Assembly (NCBI GenBank): GCA_964017195.1
Contig: OZ024887.1
Coordinates: 64,227,311 to 64,291,310, forward strand
Length of the DNA stretch: 64,000 nt
Direction: 5' to 3'
DNA from: Siderastrea radians
Lineage: Eukaryota > Cnidaria > Anthozoa > Scleractinia > Rhizangiidae
Part shown: piece by piece, positions 471-58,935 of the stretch
Numbering within the stretch: position 1 is the stretch's first letter
How the letters are laid out: each line of letters starts with the position of its first letter
Position numbers and translations under genes: made by a program
Notes under the pieces: model-generated
Seen by the model: the letters and a program-made list of their open reading frames with translations, nothing else
The model's database searches: none
Told to the model about the DNA's origin: nothing

Positions 471-3400
471 ATGCAGCCGGCCACTAACAGTAAAATGGCG
501 TTGATTGTATTTCGCACAGCGGTCCTGGTTTTGCTTTCGTTTTGCACTATAATCAGTGCAGACACTCCTGCTAACTGCACATACGAGGAGATAAGAGGAG
601 CATGGCTGTTTTCAGTTGGAGAAGGAGGAAAAGATAACACGATCGACTGCTCCAAGGACTTCAAAGTTGTGTCGGAAGTTCAAGTTGATCTGTTGTTTCC
701 TGACAATGCAATGGACAGCGACGGCAATGTTGGCTTCTGGACCATGATCTACAATCAAGGATTTGAAGTGCAGATAAATGGGAAGAAATATTTTGCGTTT
801 TCTGCCTACCAGAAAAGTGGAAAAAAAGTTGTGAGCTTGTGCGACCAAACGTTGAATGGCTGGAGTCATGACGCTGCGAAATACAAACCGGGCAACTGGG
901 CTTGCTATAAAGGTAAGCTTAAATGATTAATCTGCCTGGGTTTAGGAGTTGATCAGTCGCAATCGCCCTCAACCAAAAATCTTCTCAGCTCAGTGAGGAT
1001 ATTTCAGGGTGTGTAAGTGAGATACTGCGGCAAAGATCTGTTGTGGGGGGGCGGGGGGGGAATGCGGGTCCCCAACTCTTGACATCCGGCGGAAAAACAA
1101 GACAAAAGACCCCAAAACAGTAACCTTATCCTTTCCCTAATCCCCAATTGGTCCAAATGAGGTGTTCCCTTCCCGTACTCCTCCCTTTCTAGACAGGAGA
1201 TCAATAAGCAAGCAAATGAAGCAATGACCTCTGTTCTGAAAACCATTTGAGGGCTAGTCTGATGAAGTAACTGGCAAGTACAGTGTAAGCATTCTTATAG
1301 CAATTTCTTTTGTTGCTGGCAAATTTTATCTAGATAAATGAATGCAATAACTTCACTTTAATAAGACAACTTCCCAGGATTCAAAAAGAAACTGACTACT
1401 ATACAGTGTGTTGCCCAGTTTTCGTACACTTTAGTTTGTAATCGCTATATCGTTTCGTCAGTGAGACGGAAATTTCTGAAATTTCTTTTACAGATACCCC
1501 ATTTACTTACCTTCAATATATAAAACGATTGGCCCCTTGATCGACGTATGTTCAAAATTATGCCATTTTCCCCAAAACTCCTAAGTTGCCCAGTCTTCGT
1601 ACACCTGGCCCAGTTTTCGTACATCGACAAAACAACATTTCTCCACAAAAACGCTCGACGCAAACTGATGTGTCAGCTACCCTGCTGAGTGCTTATCGTG
1701 TTTTCTCTTCGATTTGTGAATAAATATCGGCTTAGCGACCAATCATTTGGTGTACAAAGCAAATGGTTATTCGGGGGGTGGATGTTTAATCGATCCTGCA
1801 GTGTTGATTTTTTTGTCCCTCACTTTTGGGCGGCTTTTCTTACGCTCAATCTACTGTCTCGTACGTCATTTACTGCCTTGGTAAAGGTAGTTGACAGGTT
1901 ACTATTCTGCGTATTACAACTGTTAAGAAAAGGCCTGTATAAGATTCCCGTTTTCCTTCCGTTTTGCTTACGCCTTCAGAATAGCATACGCTTTACTTCC
2001 GTTTCTGCTTACGCTTGCTTTTCTTACCTACTTTTGTAAATGTTTATTAGAATCGCAACGGAGTGAAAAAAATGGGTAAAACCGGTAAACTAACGATATT
2101 TCAAGGTGTATGTCAACATTTCTATGCATAGACATCTACCTTAGTTAATTATTTAACGATTTAGATTGATTGCGTGGGATTGAGTTTATTAAATATTCGT
2201 GAACTTTGCATGACCTGGATGTAAAGCGTCGCTGTTATACCACAACAAACACATGTAGTGTATCATACTTTGCAAGGATTGTTGTGTAATCTTTGCTGCA
2301 CTTGCGACTTGTTAGTTTTCGAACAGTTAAGTTTAAAATTCAGTTCTTTAACTTATTTAAAAATAGGTTTTGAGAAAGGCGCAGCTAAGTGTACGAAAAC
2401 TGGCACAGTAGGTCGAAATGTATGCGAAGGTTCTCACCGCTAAAATTCAGGAGCAGTTAAATTTAAGCTGGCATTGAAAGTTTTTCCATTCACTTTCATC
2501 TTTTATCTATCATCTGTCCAAAAATTATGAAATTCCTTGCAAAATTACCAACAAAACGGGCTGTTTGTTAATCTACAATACCTTTACTGTGCAGTGAAAA
2601 GTGCACATATTAGCCGCTAAACTTTTACTCACCTCCAAAGAAATTGTCCGCCCTGACCGGCTTCTTCGTCAAAAAGCCCGGCAAAACCGGCAATTTATAG
2701 CTGAAATGTTTCTTTTACTTTTGGAATTCTTCGGTTGACGAAGATTTAAATGACCAACGAAAATAATCAAATAAAGTTCTTTTTGTACGAAAACTGGGCC
2801 CGTACGAAAACTGGGCAACATACTGTATGCCACTGCTACTCTAGTGTATACAGTATTATTATAAGTATTAATAATTCTAAAAACTAATATAAAAGTTAAA
2901 TACTTCCTGATGTACTGCAAACCTGCTTTGCATTGTTGCCATGTAAATCACTAGAAGAATAATTTGTTTGCAGCCAGCGCTGAAGGGTCCGTGGGTGTTT
3001 ACTTGCTGCAGCTCAAAGGGAAGGCTATTGCAAAGAACTGCCCAGAGTAACTGATACTATTTTTCATAAAATTTGTATCATGGAGCAGAAGAATAGCAAG
3101 TTTGCCACATGTGTCTCTAAGAAATGAATTGGAGACACTGCAACTGCCTTGCCTGTCAATATTTCTCCAAACAAGTTTTCTGATAAGAGGTCGGTAATTA
3201 ATGTGTCATAGCTTGAGTATAATAGGATATGTGCCGATACAATGTGGGAGTTTTTGAAGGTTGCTTGGCAGAGTTTTGTTGCAGTTTCCCCAGTTAACAC
3301 TTCAGGATGAACGTTTGATTTTCTTCAATGTAATTGTTTGGTAAAGTTGAGTTTGCACCTGTCAGAGAGTAGGGGGCATCCAACGGTTCATTTTGGGGAA

Positions 3401-6400
3401 TATCTGTTCAGAAGGCCTAAAATTGCCTGAGATTTTCGTATTTAATTGCAGTGAAAGCTAGAAATTTCTTTGGCGAACATCATGTTGGACTTTCATAACA
3501 AGAGGACTTATTTCTTCCTATTGTTTTTGGAGGGACAAATATGTCATTTAGAGTACAAAATAAGGTCAGCTAGCATTTTTGGAGAGCCATCAGCAGCTCG
3601 GAATTTCGGTGGATAAGGATTCCGTTTCCTAACATTTTCTGTGGCCCAAATTTTCAGCTAGAGAATCCAAACAGATCAATCTTTATTAGTGAAGAAATTG
3701 GTAATTGATCCTGTCATATTGAATCAAAACAAATCAGGTTTCATCTTTCACAGGATCCAAAATTTATGTAACCACAACCTTTCGACTCTGTCGCGGAATC
3801 TTTATCAAATGATGGAGTTTGACGTTTTGTCATGTCATTTAGGGTGGTGAAACACGCGACAAACGTCCCCGTAGATCACCAGGAGCTCGTATCCGTTGTC
3901 TCGATTCATTTTGGGGGCCTGGCAGTGTATTTCAATCATGGCCTCTCTTATTCTTCTCTTGAGAGCGTCATTTTCCCTTGCAATGATCAAGGAGGAAGAG
4001 AAGTCAAGGGTGTACCCCAATCTTTATTAGCTTGCACAAATATTCCTTTAGAAAGCTCTAAAACAATCTAAGAATGCGGAAAATGATATTTCAAGTATTT
4101 TGCCAAAATTTTCTTCTTGGGTGAGAGAGGGGTGGGGTAGGGGCTGGTGAGGGACTGCAATTGCAGTCTTTTTTTTTTTTGCTGGTGCTTCTCTGAAATT
4201 ATGCGCTTTGGTTTCCTTCCTTAGGAAAAAAGCTTTCCAAGGTTCCTCCTAAAGAACAAAAATTGAGAGAGTTGACAGAACTTAAAAACCAGAAGTTTGT
4301 CTTCAGTCAGAAGTTTATTGATCAAGTAAACAGTGCTCAGAGTTCATGGAAAGCTGCTGTATATGAGGAGTATAATGGGATGTCTGTGGCGCAGTTGATG
4401 TCCCGTGCCGGTGGTCCCAAGAGGTTCCAGTTTCCTCAGGCAAGGTTGGTTAGAGTCTTGTAATTGTCTTCTTGTCTAATAAGTATTAAGAGTTTATTTT
4501 CTAAGTCTTTATACAGTGTTAAGTAATATTTATTTATTGTTGTGTTAATTTGCATATACAGTGATGGAGAAGTGCAAAGTTTTACTGGTTTGAAATCCAG
4601 TTTTTTTTTTTCAGGAGAGGTAGAGTTCAAAAGAGTCTATAATTTAGTGCCTTTGTTGGTGAAATCTGATGACCTGAAAAGGCACATTTCATGCATTTGC
4701 ATGTCACTCATCAATATTTGCATTGATATCTCAATAACTGCCTCTCTGCCAGTGGCTTATGAAATATAGTAAACTAAAATGTATTTCCATTCATACTGCC
4801 CGACATGGGCAATCCATAAAAATCGATATCGGAAAACCGCTCGATAAATCGATAACTATCGATATCAATCACATAAACGTTATCAATTGTATCGATCAAT
4901 CGATAAAAATCGATACTCACAACTCTTCTGGTAATTAATCGATTTTATTGATTTTATCGATGGATGTTGATCGCACATGTCTTTAATTTCTGATGTTGAT
5001 TTTGCTTTTAAAAGACGTTTAATCGCAGTAAAATGATTGCGGTGGCTTTGTTCACATATTTTGTATTTCAGTAAATGTGGTTTATTAAGCTGGCTGGATA
5101 ACTGTGCTGTATCGATGCAAGTATCTGCAAAAGTGACATCTCGCCTATTTACCTATCTAAGCAACCGCCAAGGAAAACGTTTTGAGTGGAAGCGACGGCA
5201 ATCTTTTGTTTAACCCGATAGAGCTGGTTATAGAGGTTGTCGTTATTATTAAAGCTCACATATTTCGACACAAAAAATGTTACCGAAAAAATCGATAATT
5301 TTCGATAAAATCGATAAAACTGATTGAAAAATCAATAATTATCGATTTCTCACAACAAATCTGTTTATAGATTTTTATCGATTTCCCATACAATCAACAA
5401 ATTTTATTGATTGTTATTGAATGTTATCGATTATCGAGTATCGATTGCCCACGTCGGGATACTGGAAATAATAAAAATATTCAAACATGTTATGTGTATA
5501 GATGTGATGTAGGTAATTTGGAAAACATGGAATGCCGGAATGCCGGAATCCCTGGAATCCCGGAATCCTCGGAATAACTACAAAAATTATGAATTAAAAA
5601 GTAAATTAATAAAATAAAATTAAATTCATGACGGTTCCAAGCGTTGGCGCCTAAGACGTGCGCAGAATCATTATTACCATGCAAGCATGACCTGCATTAA
5701 ATAGCGAAATCCTGGTTTTAAAACAGAATTGCACCTTACAGGCATTGCTGGAAGGTTGGAAGGCGGACTTGTTCTTACAAATGAACTGTGGCGGGAGCTT
5801 TGGGAAAGGTTTGGGCAAGCAATATTTTGCTAGTTTTTGAGCATCATCAAACCAAACAAAATTGAACACGCACAGTGAAATATACAGCGTGACAATACAA
5901 CCTCTTAGGACGAGTTGTTTTATTGCCTAATGAAACAATAGATGAATGACCCAAACAATGTCGCTATCCCTAAAAACAACAGTGGATGTGCTTTCAAGGG
6001 TCAATCAAAATAGAGGTTTCTGAAAGCTTCGTGACCACTTGGGGCACAGTTGTTATTGTTAAAAAGAGAAATTTTTGTCCAGGTTTACTGTTTTTGTGTA
6101 TTGTACAAATCCATTGCCACTGACAGCTGTGAAAAAAAAAATTGCCAATCTTTTGACCAGTTTTGAGCCCACGGAACATATTAAGTTATTTTTAAAGCAA
6201 AATAATTAAAGGAGAGGGGGCATTTGTTCAATATTTTTATTGGATTCCGAGGATTCCTGCCACGGGATATTAAATAAGAAGGGCGTTTATTCAATAACGT
6301 CGCTACATTTTTAAACATTTTTTAATGTTCTCGCCTGGGGCCAGAACATAAAGAAAGAAAAAGTTCTCTCTGCAACCTTATTGTGTTGAGTTAGCAGAGA

Positions 6401-36400: not shown

Positions 36401-39400
36401 AGATTGCGCTTCGTGATAAAACCGATTTCGGACTCGATCGTGTGCTGTCACGCCGGCTTGGCATAGCAGGTGTTTTTATCACCAAGTGCAATTATAAATA
36501 AAGAACTTTAAAGATCGTGTATTTATTGGTATTAGATCGTTCAAGGGGAGCTATGAGCAAGCCGATGTATTTAAATGTTTTTCGAGCAAGCCGGTAGTCC
36601 GTGCGATACAACACGAGAGGTTCTCGTTTCAGACTTTGCAAGACGGCGGAACTAGGCGCCAGAATCATGCACAATCACAATAGAATGGATTGTCGAGCAG
36701 CCGCAAGCAAACTTCGAGCGAACGAACAGAAGCTGACACGTTCAATAGTAAAGTAAAACATGTTCTTTATTAAAAAAAAAAAACAGTTTTAGTCGGCAAA
36801 CACGACTATGTGGTGCCAAGCGTTGCGTGAATAATTTGCGTGCCGAATGCGACGTAAGCTAAAGTTCTCAGAATTGAAATCGGTCAGTACAAAATGCAGA
36901 CTGCAGACTGCAGACTGCAGACTGCAGACCGGGTACAAAATGCAGACTAGGTACAAAATGCAGACTGCAGACTGCAGACTAGGTACAAAATGCAGACTGA
37001 CATTTGAAACTGTTTTTTTCGTTTTTTTTTTTAAATATTATTTCATTTTATAACCTACCGGTTGTCACGCAATCCCTTTTCCGATGTCATATTCCACGAA
37101 AACTCGCATTACTGGGGAATGATCTTGCTCCGTTACTCGAAATATACTTTGTAAACGAAGTCTCGAAGATCAGTTCGTTCTTAAACATGATTTAAGCCTT
37201 CTCAGTCTTCTTACTTCAAGCGCGAGATCGCATAACATAAAATAACAACGCTCGTTGCAACATGATACCGAGAAACCAGCAGACACATGACCTTCCGTGC
37301 ACGTGGTCGCTTTCTTTGCCTCTTCGCCGGTTCGTCATGGCGGCCTTTCGGAGGTCGGTTAATGCGGTAAGTAGCAGTTAAATCACCTTCCTTTAACCGA
37401 TGTGTGTTAATATAAAAATACTTATACCTCGTGAGAGAATTTAGATCTTGCATGTGAAGTAGGAGCACAGATGTCGTGTTGTATTTTACCACACAATTGC
37501 TACACAAAATGAAATCATGACTCAGCGTTTTCGTTTCGAGTAATGGAGCAAGATCATTCCCCGGTAATGCGAGTTTTCGTGGAATATGACATCGGAAAAG
37601 GGATTGCGTGACAACCGGTAATAAATATTAAAAAAAAATAGTTTCAAATGTCAGTCTGCATTTTGTACCCAGTCTGCAGTCTGCAGTCTGCATTTTGTAC
37701 CTAGTCTGCATTTTGTACCCGGTCTGCAGTCTGCAGTCTGCAGTCTGCAGTCTGCATTTTGTACTGACCGGAATTGAAATATGCCTTCGCCATACTCAAA
37801 CATGCCGTCAAAAGCGAAACTGCTGAATGTAACTTGAACTAAAAAGCAAAAGTTATGATGTTAGAAAGAGAATTAGAGTAAAATAGCAAGTTTTTTCCTG
37901 AGATTATTTTTAGTTCACGGAGCATTGCACTGAATTTGAATTTGCATACTGTGAGTCTCCAAATAAATTGTGCGAGCGGTGTGGGAACAAATCGAACCTT
38001 TCTAGATCTTTTGCGCACTTAATCCTTCGATGGTAATTGAAATAGTAAATGAAACTCATGTTGAAGCTCAAAGACAATGCCAAGTGTAAAAGAATTTGTA
38101 AGAAATAGCGATATATAGCGCGGAGTTAGTTTCAGTTCAAAAGCGCATCAAATTTGCATAACGGGTGAAATCTGACCTTTTCAATGAACGTCAGATGGTA
38201 TGTAACGCAACAATTCTATCTCTATGATGTCCGTTTTATTTCTTCTAGCTGTTGCAAATGGCACGAGTTTCCATTTCTTTCTTCGACTAACGTTAGCGTT
38301 CAGCAAAAGTGCTCAGAAGTCACGGTTTGTGAATCACGGTAAAAGCAATAATCGTGTAAAATCTATCACATCATAAAAACATCGGCGCGCGACGTCTCGC
38401 TTATTGAAGTTAATTAATCTTTGAAACAAAGGAAACAAAAGGCTATTCAAGCACCACCGCGTCCTATTCTTTACCGCGGTATTTCTGACCGCAAAAAACC
38501 GAGGTAAAACCGGAGTTTTCAAAGAAGTTAGACGAGGTTTTCCCGAGGTCAAACCGGAGATACAAACTGCAATTCCACCGCGGCAGTATCGCGGAAAATG
38601 CACCAATACTTTCGAGCGGTACTGTATTTTTGTATGACCACTTTTGGCATTATTTTGTTTTAGGTTTGGCTTGTAATGCATTACCTGTCTGAGATGACTG
38701 AAGAACAGACATTAGTAATGTGTTCAGGTCACCCTCAGGGACTATTTCCCAGCAGTCCATCTGCTCCCAGGGCTATCATCTCCAATGGAATGGTGAGTAA
38801 AAATATTTTAGAATATTTTTGTTTAAAATGATTTTACTTGTAGTTTTACTGATTGAATCTATATGAAGGAAGGCTGAATGATGTCTGAAATTAGGGCACT
38901 AAAAACAATAATAATCAGTAATTATTACTGATAAGTACATTTAAGAAATTTAAAGATCCTGGTACAAAAAAGACTTATAAACATAAAAAATATATGAAAG
39001 ATGCATGTGTTCAGGTGACTTTGAATGTCAGGAAATTATTTTCACTTTACATGAATTTTGTGTCCCTGGTGGACATCCCTTATACATGTAGGATAAAGAT
39101 CTAGAGTGGCACAAAATGGCTTGTGTACATAACGATTATAATCATCAAGGTTACTGTAGTACCTTTTCTGCAATTGTGCTTAACAAAATGTAAGCTTATA
39201 GTAATCAAGTGTTTTCCAATGTGTTAAATTTGAAATTATTGCAGTATTTGGTAAAGTCATCTGGCTCGTTTGTTTTTCAGGTAATTCCAAACTACTCCTC
39301 AAGAGATCTCTATGATAAGCTGTTTGCCTTGGGTGTAACAATGTACGGTCAGATGACAGCTGGAAGTTACTGTTACATTGGTCCTCAAGGGATTGTTCAT

Positions 39401-52531: not shown

Positions 52532-53278
52532 ACTTGACAACTGATCGGTGCATTGCCAGAGTTCTAACAGCCTCATGCACACGGGCAAATTTTCTATGAC
52601 AAGTTTTCTTTGGCAAATGATTTGAGCGTGTACATTGATGAACAAATTTTCTTTGACAGATGTCCTTGTTTGTGTGCTGGCAATGGCTTTTGGACAGCGG
52701 AACAGCAAGCGCGCAATTCAAGGCGATAAAGGCGGAAACCTGCCCAAAGTAAGTGAAAAATGTTATCCAAAAATAAAAGGCTCATTTTTCAAGTAAAGGC
52801 AAGTTAAATTATATCATGTAGCTCGGTAGCAGTAGTTTTATTGCGACCTAAAGCTGAAAATGCGGAGCAGGAAAAATACCGGTCGCATGGACCATGAAAA
52901 ATGGAGGCTCGTAGTGATAAAATGCTTCTAGAAGCATAGAAATTGTCTGAAACGGCTAAATCACTCAGTTAGGCCCGACAAAAGCTCCAAAAAACGCGCG
53001 GGCGAAGGATCCTCGAACTAATTTTCCATAAATCTTTGACAAATTTCCTTGACGATCCATCTACAAGTTTAGGGCAAATTTCACATCTGACAAAGTTTCT
53101 TTGACTAGGTTCTAGTTGGTAATATGAAAAGTTGACAAATCTCATCTACACGAGCAAACGTTTGTCATAGAAAATTTGTCAAAGCAAACTTGCTTGTGTG
53201 CATGGGGCTTACTTTGGTTTTGGTTTAAGGCATTCATTTGAAAAGCACTCCATATAACCCTAAGTGTACTCCTTAAAA

Positions 53279-56200
53279 GAGGGGCGGTAAGGGGGGGTCC
53301 TGTGCACGGTTCACGGCTATTAAAAACGACAAATAACGGTTCACGGTAATTAATGCTCCACTTTCACGATTCACGGAAAATAACACTGTAACCAAGGAGG
53401 ATTTCAGCTGTGAAGCCCTTCACTTGTCTATCTGTTTTATTCTTTACTCTTAGAATTGATGAGTACAGTGTATGTTATCTTTTGGGAGCTATTTTTTCTT
53501 GTGCCTGACAATAGTGATGAATTTCAGCTGGTGAAAATTGCGCGTATAGACTCATTTGCATTGATCGGACATTTCTATATTAACATCCGGTCAGACGACG
53601 GTGTTTTCTCTCCCAGGACTGACGAGAGATGTAGGGGAAAGGCCTGATCGCAGGCTAGTTTTTTCGCTCAAGTTGTTACGACTTCGAGAGGAAAGTCATC
53701 GTTTCCTCATGGATACACTCTAGATCTACAACTGGAAGTTCTCTACCAGACTCAGTGCAGCTAGTGTGGATGTAGGATTTAAAAAGTGGTTCGAAGACCG
53801 AAAGCTTCCTTTTTTAATTATTTTAATTAGCGAATGCTTTTATGAGGCTTATCATTTTTAGAATATGTTATTAGACTCGATGATATACTTTTTAACCCCC
53901 ACAAATGCTGTAAGTGAAGGTGAAGGTAGTGAAAGTAAATCGATGAAGAATAGTACTTAACGTCAACGTCATTTGGCCTTCCCTTGTCTCTTACCTTAAA
54001 CTGGTCTAACGAAAACTCAGAAGAACTTGGATGTGACTTTTACCATTCTTCCGCTACGAGTAGTAACTGCTCGAAGAAAAGTCATTTCGTCCTCGTTGTC
54101 TACTTGATCTTCAATGTCTGAATCTGTGTCATATTCTGATTCCTGTTCACAATCCCCTGTATCTCTGCTACCTTCTCTTGACATTTCTACCGCATCCTCT
54201 TGTTGTTCGCTCTGATAAACATCTACAGGAGCTTCCGAAGGTCTTGTCTGGAATGTCACTTTCTCGTTTTACGCAACAGAAGTAGCATACATGTTTAATG
54301 GCAGTGTGCCTGCTTTAAACATCATCGTTTCCTGACGCACGGTGCATTGTCTGACGGCCTTGCCGTAGTTTTTTACACTCCCTCATCAATTCTTTGTCGC
54401 AGCTGTTCAGCTTCCGTATGGGCTTTAGGTGGTTCATTTTTGAAAGAGCATTCAGTGGTGTCATTTGAGGAATTACAGGGTAGTACGACTTCTCGTGGGT
54501 AAAGTAGTAAGCAGCCCACCGTACAACTCGTTTGATGCTTTCATAGACAGTATTTGCCAAATTTCGAGCATACTGTAAGCAAGTGGGAAATTGATCCTTA
54601 AAATGACCCATAGCGTGGAGGTTTCCATTTGGACAGTAAGGCAGTGTGAAGATCTACTTCGTAACTTGTGTTGAGCTCTTTTAACAGCTCTGCGAGATCT
54701 TGAAGACCTTTAAGTATCATGCTAACGGACGATTGCGTTTGACTTGATATAGTCCCCTTCACTCCCATGGGTTTGCATGGTTTGTCAAAGGTAGAAATCA
54801 CTTCATCTGTTGATCTCTTCAAGTAGCTATCCAGGACTTTCAGGAGCTCTACAGCGTCAGCCAATGAAATTTTTGCCACCACCTGATGTTTTTGGTGAAC
54901 GGAGAAGGCTTTGTACAACATCCCCAAATGTTTCAAGAATTCTGCAGTGCCTTTTATTGAGGTGATTAACTTGACAGAGCCCGTTTGCGCGTCGGTTACA
55001 AATATGTTCCTATCGAGCTCAACACAGATGCCCATAGGTTGAGAAAATGAGGCATCTTTGGCTCTTCCATTGCAGTTTCCTTCCATTCCACTGTCAGCAA
55101 TAACGGTCACCTCTTCACCAGGGATTTTTGCTTTGATCTGGCGACCTTCTGTGTCAGCATGAACAATTCCATTTCTGTAAGCTGCAACGTGGGAACTTTC
55201 TACGCAGTGTGCACTTCCATTCTTGACAACCATTTCAACGGTAAGATCAGACATCTTTATAGCAACCACACCTCCAGGTTCCCCTTTTTGTGAAAGATAC
55301 AGCACATTTGAGCTCACGCACATGGAAATCACTTCTTTGCAGCCGTTAGGATACTTCGAGAAAAAGGTAACATTTCCCTCGACTGCCACTCCATTCAGCT
55401 CCAAAGTGATGGTGTAAATGGTTCCTTCCACATCACTGGCACATACAAGAATGGAGTCACTCGCCTTTGCAATACAAGATGGTTCGATGTTTTGAGAAAA
55501 GTGCACTTTAGCCAAGTCAACGTTTCGGTCAATATACGATTTCTCTAAGTTCTTCAAAAGCGTACTCAGTCTCTTTTGCAGCACTTCCACTGTGCCTTCG
55601 ATAGACAGTCCTCTTTGCTGTAGCTCACTGACAAGTCCCTCTTTCTTCAGCTTCTTGACTTGAAGTTTAGGAGTGGCAGCTATGGAAACTATCTGAATCC
55701 CTGATGTAGGTTTACATACATAAGCAATACCGCCCATGTATAACACTGACTTGGCACCTAAAAACTCTCCAAGATACTTACCCTCTGCGGGAACGTGGAG
55801 TCTGTCTTGAAAGCATATTTCTTGAGTCCAGTTACGAACTCTAACGCCTTCATCAAGTGTTACTAGGCCCAGGATCTATCCGCGAGTTTCGGAATTATAA
55901 CGACCAGTTGCAAATGACACCATTTTGCGTACATTTATTGTATTTTCAGGATCAGTTTTATTCGTAGCACAAGTCAAGTGCGAGCCATTAGTCCAGTCGA
56001 GCCAAGTCATGTTTTCAGAACTCCCCAGATGGATACCAAGTATCAATCAAACAAATACCTTGATTAAGTTCTACCAAATGCTTAATTTGCCTTTCATTCC
56101 TTTCCACATTTTCACCCATCTTTAGTCGCTTTACAAGGTGTTCGTCCTCCACTTTTGTTGCTGATCTCATTCTTTCACCACCCGGCTTCCTTTGATTGTT

Positions 56201-57581
56201 TTGATGACCGCCATGATTCTTTCCGTGTTTGGTCTGGCTCGCTGGGGCTATTTCTTTGCCAGCTACTGTTACCTTTATAACGGGGGGATCTTTTGCGAAA
56301 ACAATTTCTCTCCTCAGGACATTGACTACAAAAGATCAAACCAGACTAAAATTAATTAAAATATATATACACGGAAAACCCTATTACTCATTCATAGGAC
56401 TACGTATAAAAGAAACCATGTTTCTAGGAGAGATATAGAGGATCTGCGATGTTAAAATTCCCATGGTCTCTCCTTATAATTGTGACTTGCCATCGGATGA
56501 AAATGTCGAAGATGTATGGTCTTTCGCTTTGCGTTACGCAAATCAGGTTGTGTTACATCCGGCTGGAATAGCTGTGTGGATGTCTGTAAACAGCTGTATA
56601 CAGCCAGAACATCTGCCATGAAGCGTTTAAATCTTTTTCAAAAAGTTTCAGTTTTGGGAGAATAAAAGACCCAGGCATATAACATTTTCGTAATGGGGAA
56701 TTGAACGAAATCCCGTCACAAACCAAAAAGGGATGTAGGCTGCTTTGACCTTAGTGTCTTTCAGTGACCATTCACAAACACGTGCGAATATTAAAAATAA
56801 CTGCTCACCTTGTAATGCTGTTGTCGACGGTGACTTTAAAAAAAGAGGCCTCTCTTCGTCCCACTGTGCCTGTGTGTTTATAGCATACGCTTTGCTGCCC
56901 TCTGCGGACTTTACTAACCGGCAGGGTTTTAATTCAATACAGGATCCAAGACCACGCTTTTCCGATTCAGCTTTCAAACCAGCATATACTCTATAATGTG
57001 CCGCCTTAAAGCTTCTACAGAAGAATGCGTACTGGTGATCGGAATACGGATTCTTTCCTTCCCTCCAAGAAAAGCCAGAGTTCCAACAGATTTGGGGTCC
57101 ACATAATAAACTACTCCCTCTAATAACATTTGTTCACTGTCTGTATTGTCGGCCATTGTAGCTGGCATACCTGGACTGACCCTGACGGCAGTACAAAGGT
57201 CACAAATGTCATGCGGAGACTAAGGTCTGCCCAAGGTCATTGGCGTCATCAGAGATTGTTTTAAAATTGAGCTTAATTATCACGCGGTCTTCAAAGGATT
57301 CAAATAACAAAGCAGAATCCTGCCATTTGAAACTTTAAAACAGGTTAAAAAAAACTCCTGTGAGGATCCAAGAAGGCCCAAGAACGTTACCACCCATGTA
57401 ATCCATTTTCACGAGAAATATTTCAATCATAATCACGAATATCGGATAATATTTTTTATGTTTCACGTATCACGACAAGCACAACATTCACAGTTCACGT
57501 GTTATAATTTCACACTTTCACAGATCACGGAATTTAAAACCGCTTGATCACGTATCACGCAAAACCCCCTTTCATCCCCTC
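53279..57581. mobile_element. 4.3 kb TIR element carrying a decayed SAP/NHL gene
   Basis: The left end GAGGGGCGGTAAGGGGGG and the right end, inverse of GAGGGGATGAAAGGGGG, are flanked on both sides by TTAAAA (53273-53278 and 57582-57587). Just inside both ends are clusters of TCACGG-like motifs (53320-53390 and 57440-57560), in opposite orientations as expected of transposase-binding subterminal repeats. The only substantial reading frames inside belong to the minus-strand gene at 54017-57168. The flank could also be read as TTAA, as in Kolobok or piggyBac. The superfamily is not established. Confidence 0.72.
54017..57168 (-). pseudogene. SAP-domain, NHL-repeat protein gene, frame-broken, inside the TIR element
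   Basis: Exon 1 starts at 57168 (MPATMADN...) and ends at a good donor at 56809. Exon 2 starts after TTTTGTAG at 56325 and runs to about 54017. The largest open piece, 54598-55746 (382 codons), holds a SAP-type DNA-binding helix pair (residues about 33-64, KKEGLVSELQQRGLS) and a C-terminal NHL-like repeat (ASFSQPMGICVELDRNIFVTD). The next piece (54315-54611) is basic. The last (54017-54259) is acidic and ends TTRSGRMVKVTSKFF. Reading continues across breaks: frameshifts near 57000, 56020, 54630 and 54390, and stops near 55878 and 54268. Six lesions make this copy non-functional unless the assembly is poor. I do not recognise a DDE transposase core; whether this is the transposase or a passenger gene is open. 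Confidence 0.7.
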
Positions 57582-57982
57582 TTAAAAGTTGTCGAAAATA
57601 TTGCACCGCATCGTTTGACCTAAACTCAGAAGGTGACTAAAGATTTTTACGGGTTGTCCATGTTGGAGAAAATCAACCTAATGACCCGTGAATTTCTTTG
57701 CCTTCTTTCCAGTTAGAAAACTTCTATTCAGTTTTGTTGAGATGGGCGAAAGAGTAAAAGTGAAGGGAAGAATTGACCTTGGGATCAAGGCTTGAAATAA
57801 ATGTGATCGGATCGCGTTCTTCAACCTCAGCTGGCTGTGGTTGATTTGTGTAATGTTTCCTTTTATTTATTTCCCTTGTATACCGACGTCAGATGTACCT
57901 CACTAATGAGAACTCTGACGGGACATTTCTGAACATTTTTTTGCTTGAAACGGGAGATAGCTATATTGAACAATACGATCAA

Positions 57983-58935
57983 CCGTGGCAACCTAGTCTG
58001 GTGTCAGTTGAAACGGTTGATCAACCCTAAACCAACCGGAAAAGGTTTTTTTTCCCGCCAAACGAACGCGATGCAACCCAACTAAACCACTGATGCTAGT
58101 AAAAATACTCAAATGTCGTCAATAGTTAGTAAAGCCTTACAGTATCGATCCTCCGAAATAGTAAGAGCTAGATGACAAACGTAACTTGACTTTTCCTAAG
58201 TAACCCTTTACATAGAAAACCATAACATATGCAATAAGACGTTTAGCTCCGTGGCAACCGAGTCTGATGTTAGTTGAAACGGTTGATCAACCCTAAACCA
58301 ACCGGAAAAGGTTTTTTTCCCGGGCGAACGCGATACAACCCAACTGAACAATTGTTGTCGGCAGTTAATAAAACCTTACAGTAGCGATCCTCCGAAATTG
58401 TAAGAGCTACATGACAAACGTAACCTGACTTTTCGTAAGTAACCCTTTTACATAGAAAATCATAACATATGCAATAAGACGTTTGGATACGTGGCAACCG
58501 AGTCTGATGTTAGTTGAAACGGTTGATCAACCCTAAACCAACCGGAAAAGGTTTTTTCCCGGGCGAACGTGATAAAACCCAACTGAACGATTGTTGTCGG
58601 CAGTTAATAAAGCCTTACAGTAGCGATCCTCCGAAATTGTAAGAACTACATGACAAACGTAACCTGACTTTTCGTAAGTAACCCTTTTACATAGAAAATC
58701 ATAACATATGCAATAAGACGTTTGGTTACGTGGCAACCGAGTCTGATGTTAGTTGAAACGGTTGATCAACCCTAAACCAACCGGAAAAGGTTTTTTTCCC
58801 GCCAAACAAACGCGATACAACCCAACTCAAGAGCTAAGATGCTTAAGAGCTAGATGACAAACGTAATTTGACTTTTCGTAAACCCTTTCTCATCTGATAA
58901 AACGATAACATATGCAATAAGACGTTTGGTACCTA
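57983..58935. repeat. Tandem array, unit about 240 bp, 4 copies
   Basis: The block CGTGGCAACCGAGTCTGATG followed by TTAGTTGAAACGGTTGATCA starts at about 57983, 58251, 58491 and 58731. Spacing is 268, 240 and 240 bp, and the last copy is shortened. The units are over 90% alike by eye in the middle two copies, with a longer, more diverged first copy. The minus-strand frames at 58270 and 58533 are the same spurious ORF repeated. I see no gene. Confidence 0.85.

Follow-up and report, generated by a model that had tools for sequence, protein, structure and literature searches.

The described DNA transposons that come closest to the element reported here are known by their target site duplications, their termini and the motifs of their transposases. 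Kolobok transposases are described as carrying a C/DxxH motif after the second catalytic D and, in some lineages, a zinc finger after the first D (PMC9587614); a zinc finger between DxxH and E is also described, Kolobok1 being the only lineage named as lacking it. For Dada, the published account gives duplications of 6–7 bp, a DxxH motif, a large multi-exon gene and internally deleted copies; it describes Dada-U6 and Dada-U1 as having no terminal inverted repeats (TIRs), and Dada as inserting into small RNA genes (PMC3706591). Duplications of IS3EU are reported to be usually 6 bp, with TA..TA termini in its complete families (PMC10045372), those of Zisupton and Dileera to be 8 bp and those of Kyakuja 7 bp (PMC12730594). 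piggyBac is described as duplicating TTAA (PMC9587614), and the CMITE/piggyBac miniature inverted-repeat transposable elements of Acropora as related to piggyBac-like transposons (PMC2872659). Insertion domains are reported to differ among transposases, Hermes being one example (PMC7776569). In this study, we analysed a stretch of 64,000 nucleotides from Siderastrea radians (assembly GCA_964017195.1, contig OZ024887.1, positions 64,227,311 to 64,291,310), hereafter the window, in which positions 53279–57581 very probably hold a copy, non-autonomous and with an internal deletion, of a cut-and-paste DNA transposon whose fuller relatives encode a protein with a predicted DDE core and a propeller of NHL repeats. 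We read the family as an undescribed DDE cut-and-paste lineage.

By inspection, the element starts with GAGGGG and ends with CCCCTC, and TTAAAA abuts it on both sides. The inverted repeat taken together with its flanks spans 24 nt at 79%, which places it in the top two by length among the 135 pairs of the region. When an 8-bp direct repeat was required together with an inverted repeat, the window gave two matches, and 40 random sequences gave 0.325 on average. Of 500 shuffles of the two end regions of 200 bases each, 34 reached the score of the inverted repeat of the window copy alone. The ends of this copy are thus unconvincing when judged singly, and it is the genome copies that settle the matter.

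A DNA search of the 804.8-Mb assembly containing the window returned 82 rows, which correspond to 36 places. At least 26 of these have main pieces at 92–100% identity, and 18 of the 26, the window included, retain both ends; C1:64299417, which reached 92% only through a 34-bp piece, is omitted from these counts. Target duplications were read in 17 of the 18 two-ended copies (C3:3360561 excluded), and C6:29673699 was dropped because its right flank is too short. Among the remaining 16, which are readable on both flanks, 15 have a duplication of 6 bp, immediately outside GAGGGG...CCCCTC, and one has a duplication of 7 bp. The 15 six-base duplications represent 13 different sequences, with T as the first base in 13 and as the second base in 13; the insertion targets are therefore varied and T/A-rich. 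Such variety speaks against the copies being pieces of segmental duplications rather than insertions made independently. These data bear out the claim of a sequence-only reading of this locus that the two ends and the TTAAAA flanks bound a real element, and the further copies for which it proposed to search the genome were found. The boundary features are as follows.

53273..53278, no strand: left target site duplication TTAAAA, at exactly the boundary where 15/16 readable copies have a 6-bp and 1/16 a 7-bp duplication.
53279..53295, + strand: left TIR, GAGGGGCGGTAAGGGGG; 14/17 positions pair with the right end (13/16 without the outer base), and the left ends of other copies are similar.
57565..57581, − strand: right TIR, CCCCCTTTCATCCCCTC, from the inverted-repeat search and the comparison of copies.
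57582..57587, no strand: right target site duplication TTAAAA, from the flank comparison of genome copies.

Two other readings of the duplication were considered and rejected. An 8-bp duplication, CTTAAAAG, had been read from the window copy by itself; across 17 copies the outer G and C do not vary, which assigns both bases to the element and leaves a duplication of 6 bp. The TTAA duplication of Kolobok or piggyBac was ruled out by the 6-bp duplications of the genome copies, and the CMITE/piggyBac elements of Acropora were dropped as candidate relatives once these had been seen. The same copies dispose of the idea that the locus is a single-copy host gene next to chance repeats, its ends not being transposon ends. 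The non-significant inverted repeat of the window copy would agree with that idea, but the number of places at 92% identity or more, the shared pair of ends, the variety of the 6-bp duplications and the frame breaks in the window copy all stand against it. Because copies are many and their duplications varied, we regard it as refuted and give it practically no credence.

Clusters of the word TCACG lie at a similar distance from either end, four words at the left and eight at the right. Their placement agrees with the sequence-only reading, which had described mirrored TCACGG clusters, but all 12 exact words are on the + strand, so that the clusters are direct rather than mirrored. The words form 14-bp boxes resembling TTCACRNWTCACGG, mostly spaced by 30 bp, in two arrays identified by motif search.

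53303..53376, + strand: left subterminal array of three 14-bp boxes (TTCACGNTTCACGG-like) at 53303, 53333 and 53363, 30 bp apart.
57462..57560, + strand, the same as that of the left array: right subterminal array of 14-bp boxes at 57462, 57487, 57517 and 57547.

Six of the eight box matches (≤3 mismatches) found in the whole window fall in these two end clusters, 3.64 matches being expected for the whole window. The boxes are probably transposase-binding sites.

Between the ends, the − strand carries the remains of a gene. The SAP motif and NHL-like repeats claimed for it earlier are both present: the former was detected by hmmscan below the Pfam cut-off, and a single-sequence search of the PDB matched NHL-type propellers, with SOQ1 at an E value of 6.5e-11. 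A predicted-protein search gave 20 relatives at E ≤ 0.001 of 7992 scored, seven of which are 1132–1177 residues long. The last 600 residues of one relative, P0002, align to the window copy in three successive frames (residues 558–945 to 55803–54637, 951–1032 to 54623–54378 and 1036–1155 to 54370–54020), and no counterpart of its residues 1–557 was found in the window. No catalytic D is left, and the codon of the catalytic E lies between the frame breaks near 54637 and 54623. The gene comprises the following parts, listed in the direction of transcription.

56809..57168, − strand: exon 1, encoding an N-terminal transposase domain of no known family, with a frame break near 56986–56998 and a donor GTGAGC at 56808 (sequence comparison).
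56059..56325, − strand: exon 2, encoding the remainder of the N-terminal domain and a basic stretch, with an acceptor TTTTGTAG before 56325 and a donor GTATTT at 56058 (sequence comparison).
55801..56058, − strand: start of intron 2, as far as the deletion junction (comparison with the C4 copy described below).
55800..55801, no strand: internal deletion junction, at which about 2.64 kb is absent relative to the C4 copy; element pieces 2541–4323 and 1688–2542 flank a 2642-bp stretch in C4:31407823-31414505.
54638..55803, − strand: NHL propeller with SAP motif, followed by a portion of the catalytic domain's C-terminal half, corresponding to P0002 558–945 (hmmscan, PDB search and P0002 alignment).
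54020..54637, − strand: rest of the C-terminal half, with an LTVQME/NLHA motif, a VRQxTVRQETxxxKAGTLP motif and the C-terminal tail; frame break near 54375 (P0002 alignment).

The piece made up of the upstream exons (57168–56809 and 56325–56059) has 31 relatives at E ≤ 1, of 147–414 residues under search length limits of about 148–470 residues, and these include Desmophyllum, Oculina, Stylophora and Montipora records. P0029 spans this piece and the N-terminal sequence of P0003, and P0028, P0031, P0036 and P0043 link it to later parts; the upstream exons are therefore the start of the same gene. The N-terminal domain gave no Pfam match of worth, YABBY_N reaching E 0.13 across the finger region of P0022, and a profile search of the PDB gave no match. 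The stretch 55801–56058 had also been considered as a captured gene piece, which was ruled out because it has no Pfam match and the order of the C4 copy places it between exon 2 and the finger exon.

Fuller relatives are present in the same genome. A protein search of the genome with P0002, in which 40 of 694 candidates were scored, returned 52 rows, five of which cover more than 1000 of the 1155 residues without a stop. The fuller relatives are 6.3–6.7 kb long, each with one multi-exon gene. The copy at C4:31407823-31414505 (6683 bp) is 96–97% identical to the window copy on either side of the 2642-bp stretch absent from the window. Between the same ends, and with the duplication TACAAT, it carries the N-terminal exons, then a C-C-H-C finger exon and then a large exon. 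What the window copy has lost at 55800/55801 is thus the zinc-finger exon, the first D, the Cys-rich part, the second D and DxxH. This loss explains why the sequence-only reading recognised no transposase core here. A more distant relative, C9:13629036-13635305 (6270 bp; 62% identity to P0002), has a perfect 16-bp TIR and a large frame open over 1133 residues; the coding blocks found fall within its ends, and the gene spans most of the element. CGTGA words occur at both of its ends in pairs 7 bp apart, many of them at a spacing of about 30 bp; read on the opposite strand the word is TCACG, and the gene of this relative is oriented in reverse relative to the window element.

Several copies have internal deletions in common: that at element positions 1669/3241 is shared by six places and that at 1572/3260 by four, for example. 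The window copy differs from C3:54272606 by 12 substitutions and three insertions/deletions, one of which is a 333-bp insertion in C3. The two have their deletion in common and different duplications (TTAAAA and TTATTA), which indicates that a form without the catalytic aspartates moved recently. The window copy would thus be a non-autonomous one mobilised in trans, and the family seems to have been mobile recently, judging by its near-identical deleted copies and the open reading frames in this genome. Two places, G000:C6:22198302-22199575 and C6:22904156-22905429, are alike in layout and lie 706 kb apart on one contig; either one deleted form inserted twice or a segment was duplicated. At G000:C1:64299417-64301673, some 14.5 kb rightward of the element, lies a copy of a related family (main pieces at 75–78%), so that two related families have inserted near each other.

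In full-length relatives, an N-terminal domain of no known family is followed by a basic stretch, a C-C-H-C finger and an acidic linker, the latter two recognised by eye, and then by a core with the order D...D...DxxH...E, in which a Cys-rich part lies between the first and second D. The finger (CGxC...H....C) was seen ahead of the core in P0022, P0061, P0062 and P0066, with no Pfam match above the cut-off there. Sequence comparison places the conserved D, D and E of the relatives on both sides of the propeller in the same protein; the comparison of catalytic residues took in three of the genome frames. An RNase-H-like fold, for which the sequence-only reading had advised a search, is predicted for the core of the fuller relatives. 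A fold search with the whole model was dominated by propellers; searched alone instead, the core had P element transposase as its best match. In the model, a six-bladed NHL propeller with the SAP motif (P0002 residues 605–640) is predicted to sit between beta-5 of the core and the helix bearing the E, where P has its GTP-binding insertion domain. PF21787, which we take to be a family built on P/THAP9-type proteins, matched 7 of 45 members at E ≤ 1 and was above the cut-off in P0062.

By sequence, the propeller is best matched by SOQ1 and NHLRC2. To our knowledge, the NHL-propeller proteins NHLRC2, SOQ1, TRIM71 and Thin are host proteins without a transposase core; the present propeller lies inside a core together with SAP. 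The host-type character of SAP and NHL, these matches and the lack of a catalytic D in the window copy would suit a host SAP/NHL gene captured as cargo by an unrelated transposon and playing no part in transposition, an origin that had been raised for this locus. In the relatives, however, D-D-E flanks the propeller in the same protein; the gene extends over most of the C9 element, and cnidarian, Mytilus, Priapulus and Branchiostoma records hold related proteins. With SAP and NHL lying inside a transposase in the relatives, we consider capture as cargo very unlikely; an ancient capture of the propeller by a transposase appears likely instead.

Several observations weigh against our interpretation of the family as one of DDE transposons with a propeller. 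The match to the P fold is distant, with a TM-score of 0.38 relative to model length and 9% identity, and in a second search 11% identity and a root-mean-square deviation of 7.2 across 275 residues; no transposase was among the PDB matches listed by a sequence profile search. The link to P thus consists of a predicted fold and a weak Pfam match. The proposed place of E950 in the active site depends on the order of elements in the model, and the core-only search was made without the E-bearing helix. Among the elements themselves, one duplication among the 16 measures 7 bp, the C4 copy carries damage of its own (a stop, changes of frame and a gap at P0002 842–936), and the duplication of the C9 relative agrees in only five of six bases. 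L005, an open-frame copy, showed no convincing TIR by the same rule, and the ends of other open-frame copies were not searched for.

The family has the general features of DDE cut-and-paste transposons, namely dispersed copies, shared inverted ends, duplications of fixed length and a predicted RNase-H-like fold with D, D and E. Judging by published descriptions, P, Kolobok, Dada, Zisupton/KDZ, piggyBac and IS3EU each differ from it in at least one of the features compared. P/THAP9 elements have an 8-bp duplication in place of the 6 bp (in one case 7 bp) seen here, a helical GTP-binding insertion where the propeller with SAP is found at the corresponding place, and an N-terminal THAP domain. 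No THAP match was found in P0061 (1432 aa, N-terminal domain included), where NHL was the only match at E ≤ 0.1, nor at E ≤ 1 in P0021, P0022 and P0024, which contain the N-terminal domain, nor among the 25 of 44 matching Pfam families listed for 45 members. The Cys-rich part between the first and second D is a further difference of the present family. The likeness to P lies in the predicted RNase H core, and the protein may work like a P-type transposase with a different insertion domain. We know of no solved structure for Kolobok or Dada, and the P-type fold match therefore does not separate P from them.

Kolobok resembles the present family in C/DxxH after the second D, in the zinc finger of some of its lineages after the first D, and in its 5'-RR...YY-3' termini (GA...TC here). 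Its duplication is the 4-bp TTAA, whereas only two of the 15 six-base duplications start with TTAA (TTAAAA and TTAATA). At the place of its zinc finger, between DxxH and E, lie the propeller and SAP, and no Cys/His cluster was seen by eye in A1, the comparison with Kolobok being by published description. All four Dada features listed at the outset recur here, duplication length, DxxH, a large multi-exon gene and internally deleted copies. The TIRs, perfect over 16 bp in the C9 relative, set the family apart from Dada, and the 13 different sequences among 15 duplications speak against one fixed target. IS3EU agrees in duplication length and differs in its termini (TA..TA against GA..TC). The 8- or 7-bp duplications of Zisupton/KDZ and the TTAA of piggyBac differ from what is seen here, so that the comparison with Kolobok, Zisupton and piggyBac suggested by the sequence-only reading went against all three. 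hAT elements have an 8-bp duplication (5–7 bp in variants) and a C-terminal hATC dimerisation domain. MuDR elements have long duplications of the 9-bp type, against 6 bp here, and a MULE transposase domain, which was not among the 25 of 44 matching Pfam families listed for the 45 members.

A member of one of the named superfamilies with C/DxxH (P, Kolobok, Dada, hAT or MuDR) could have acquired the propeller, and it may already bear a name in Repbase. The best fold match to P element transposase, the PF21787 matches and the presence of DxxH speak for this, as do the duplications of 6–7 bp, the length reported for Dada (PMC3706591). On the other side stand the 8-bp duplication of P and its THAP and GTP-binding domains, neither of which was found here, the TTAA duplication of Kolobok, and the lack of TIRs in Dada. 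We regard such membership as possible, though rather unlikely. We lean instead, with some reserve, towards an unnamed superfamily of animal DDE transposons, with related proteins in at least four phyla, in which an NHL propeller with SAP replaces the insertion domain in the RNase-H core and may tie the protein to a host partner. That the locus belongs to a DNA transposon, one of the earlier suggestions, is upheld by the copies, the duplications and the predicted D-D-E core. As to whether the lineage is undescribed, no description of a transposase with an NHL propeller was found in the open-licence literature; Repbase was outside this search, and the term 'undescribed' is hence not proven.

In the most likely mechanism, the finger, SAP or both would bind the boxes spaced by 30 bp, and through these DNA-binding parts and the boxes the full protein would pair the two element ends. 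The D-D-E core would then cut the ends and join them to T/A-rich target DNA with a 6-bp stagger. Taking the part that the GTP-binding domain plays in P, the propeller would be the insertion domain, with possible contacts to DNA or to a host protein. On this view the copy in the window would be a passenger, having kept its ends and boxes, lost D, D and DxxH, and moved in trans.

Of 7996 proteins scored in a profile search, 122 reached E ≤ 0.01, and 120 of these were listed. Most rows carry no species name; the named records among the matches listed are from Oculina, Desmophyllum, Exaiptasia, Paramuricea, Mytilus (three species), Priapulus and Branchiostoma, to which the predicted-protein search adds Stylophora. 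Protein records thus indicate relatives in Cnidaria, Mollusca, Priapulida and Chordata. The three Mytilus records are placed apart from one another in a tree of 62 core sequences, and one of them lies within the P0002 group. A full-length relative, P0053, is deposited under a Sedimenticola (bacterial) metagenome-assembled genome and probably represents animal DNA binned with the bacterium. No relative was confirmed in viral contigs or prokaryote genomes by scans with two short peptide patterns each. P0160 (1277 residues, 22% identity) shows by eye a similar order of D, Cys-rich part, D, a DxxH-like motif and E on a very long tree branch, which is a hint of a wider family.

Elsewhere in the window, a tandem array with a 239-bp unit (2.9 copies, 93% matches) occupies 58124–58827, about 540 bp to the right of the element. 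Two further tandem arrays, at 36887–36999 and 37652–37764, resemble mutual reverse complements (GTACAAAATGCAGAC... and ...CAGTCTGCATTTTGTACC) about 650 bp apart, and could mark the two ends of a further small element about 0.9 kb long.

In cnidarian, mussel, priapulid and lancelet records, the named relatives carry the label of uncharacterised or hypothetical protein, and the finding would explain a multi-copy gene family. If our interpretation is correct, a beta-propeller at the place of the insertion domain, conserved across phyla, would mean that transpososomes can be built in a further, new way, and would offer a testable example of a protein-interaction module lodged inside a catalytic core. 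Such a host-type module within the catalytic assembly could tie cutting or target choice to a host partner, and the recent mobility suggested by the copies in Siderastrea radians would make the activity of the family testable.

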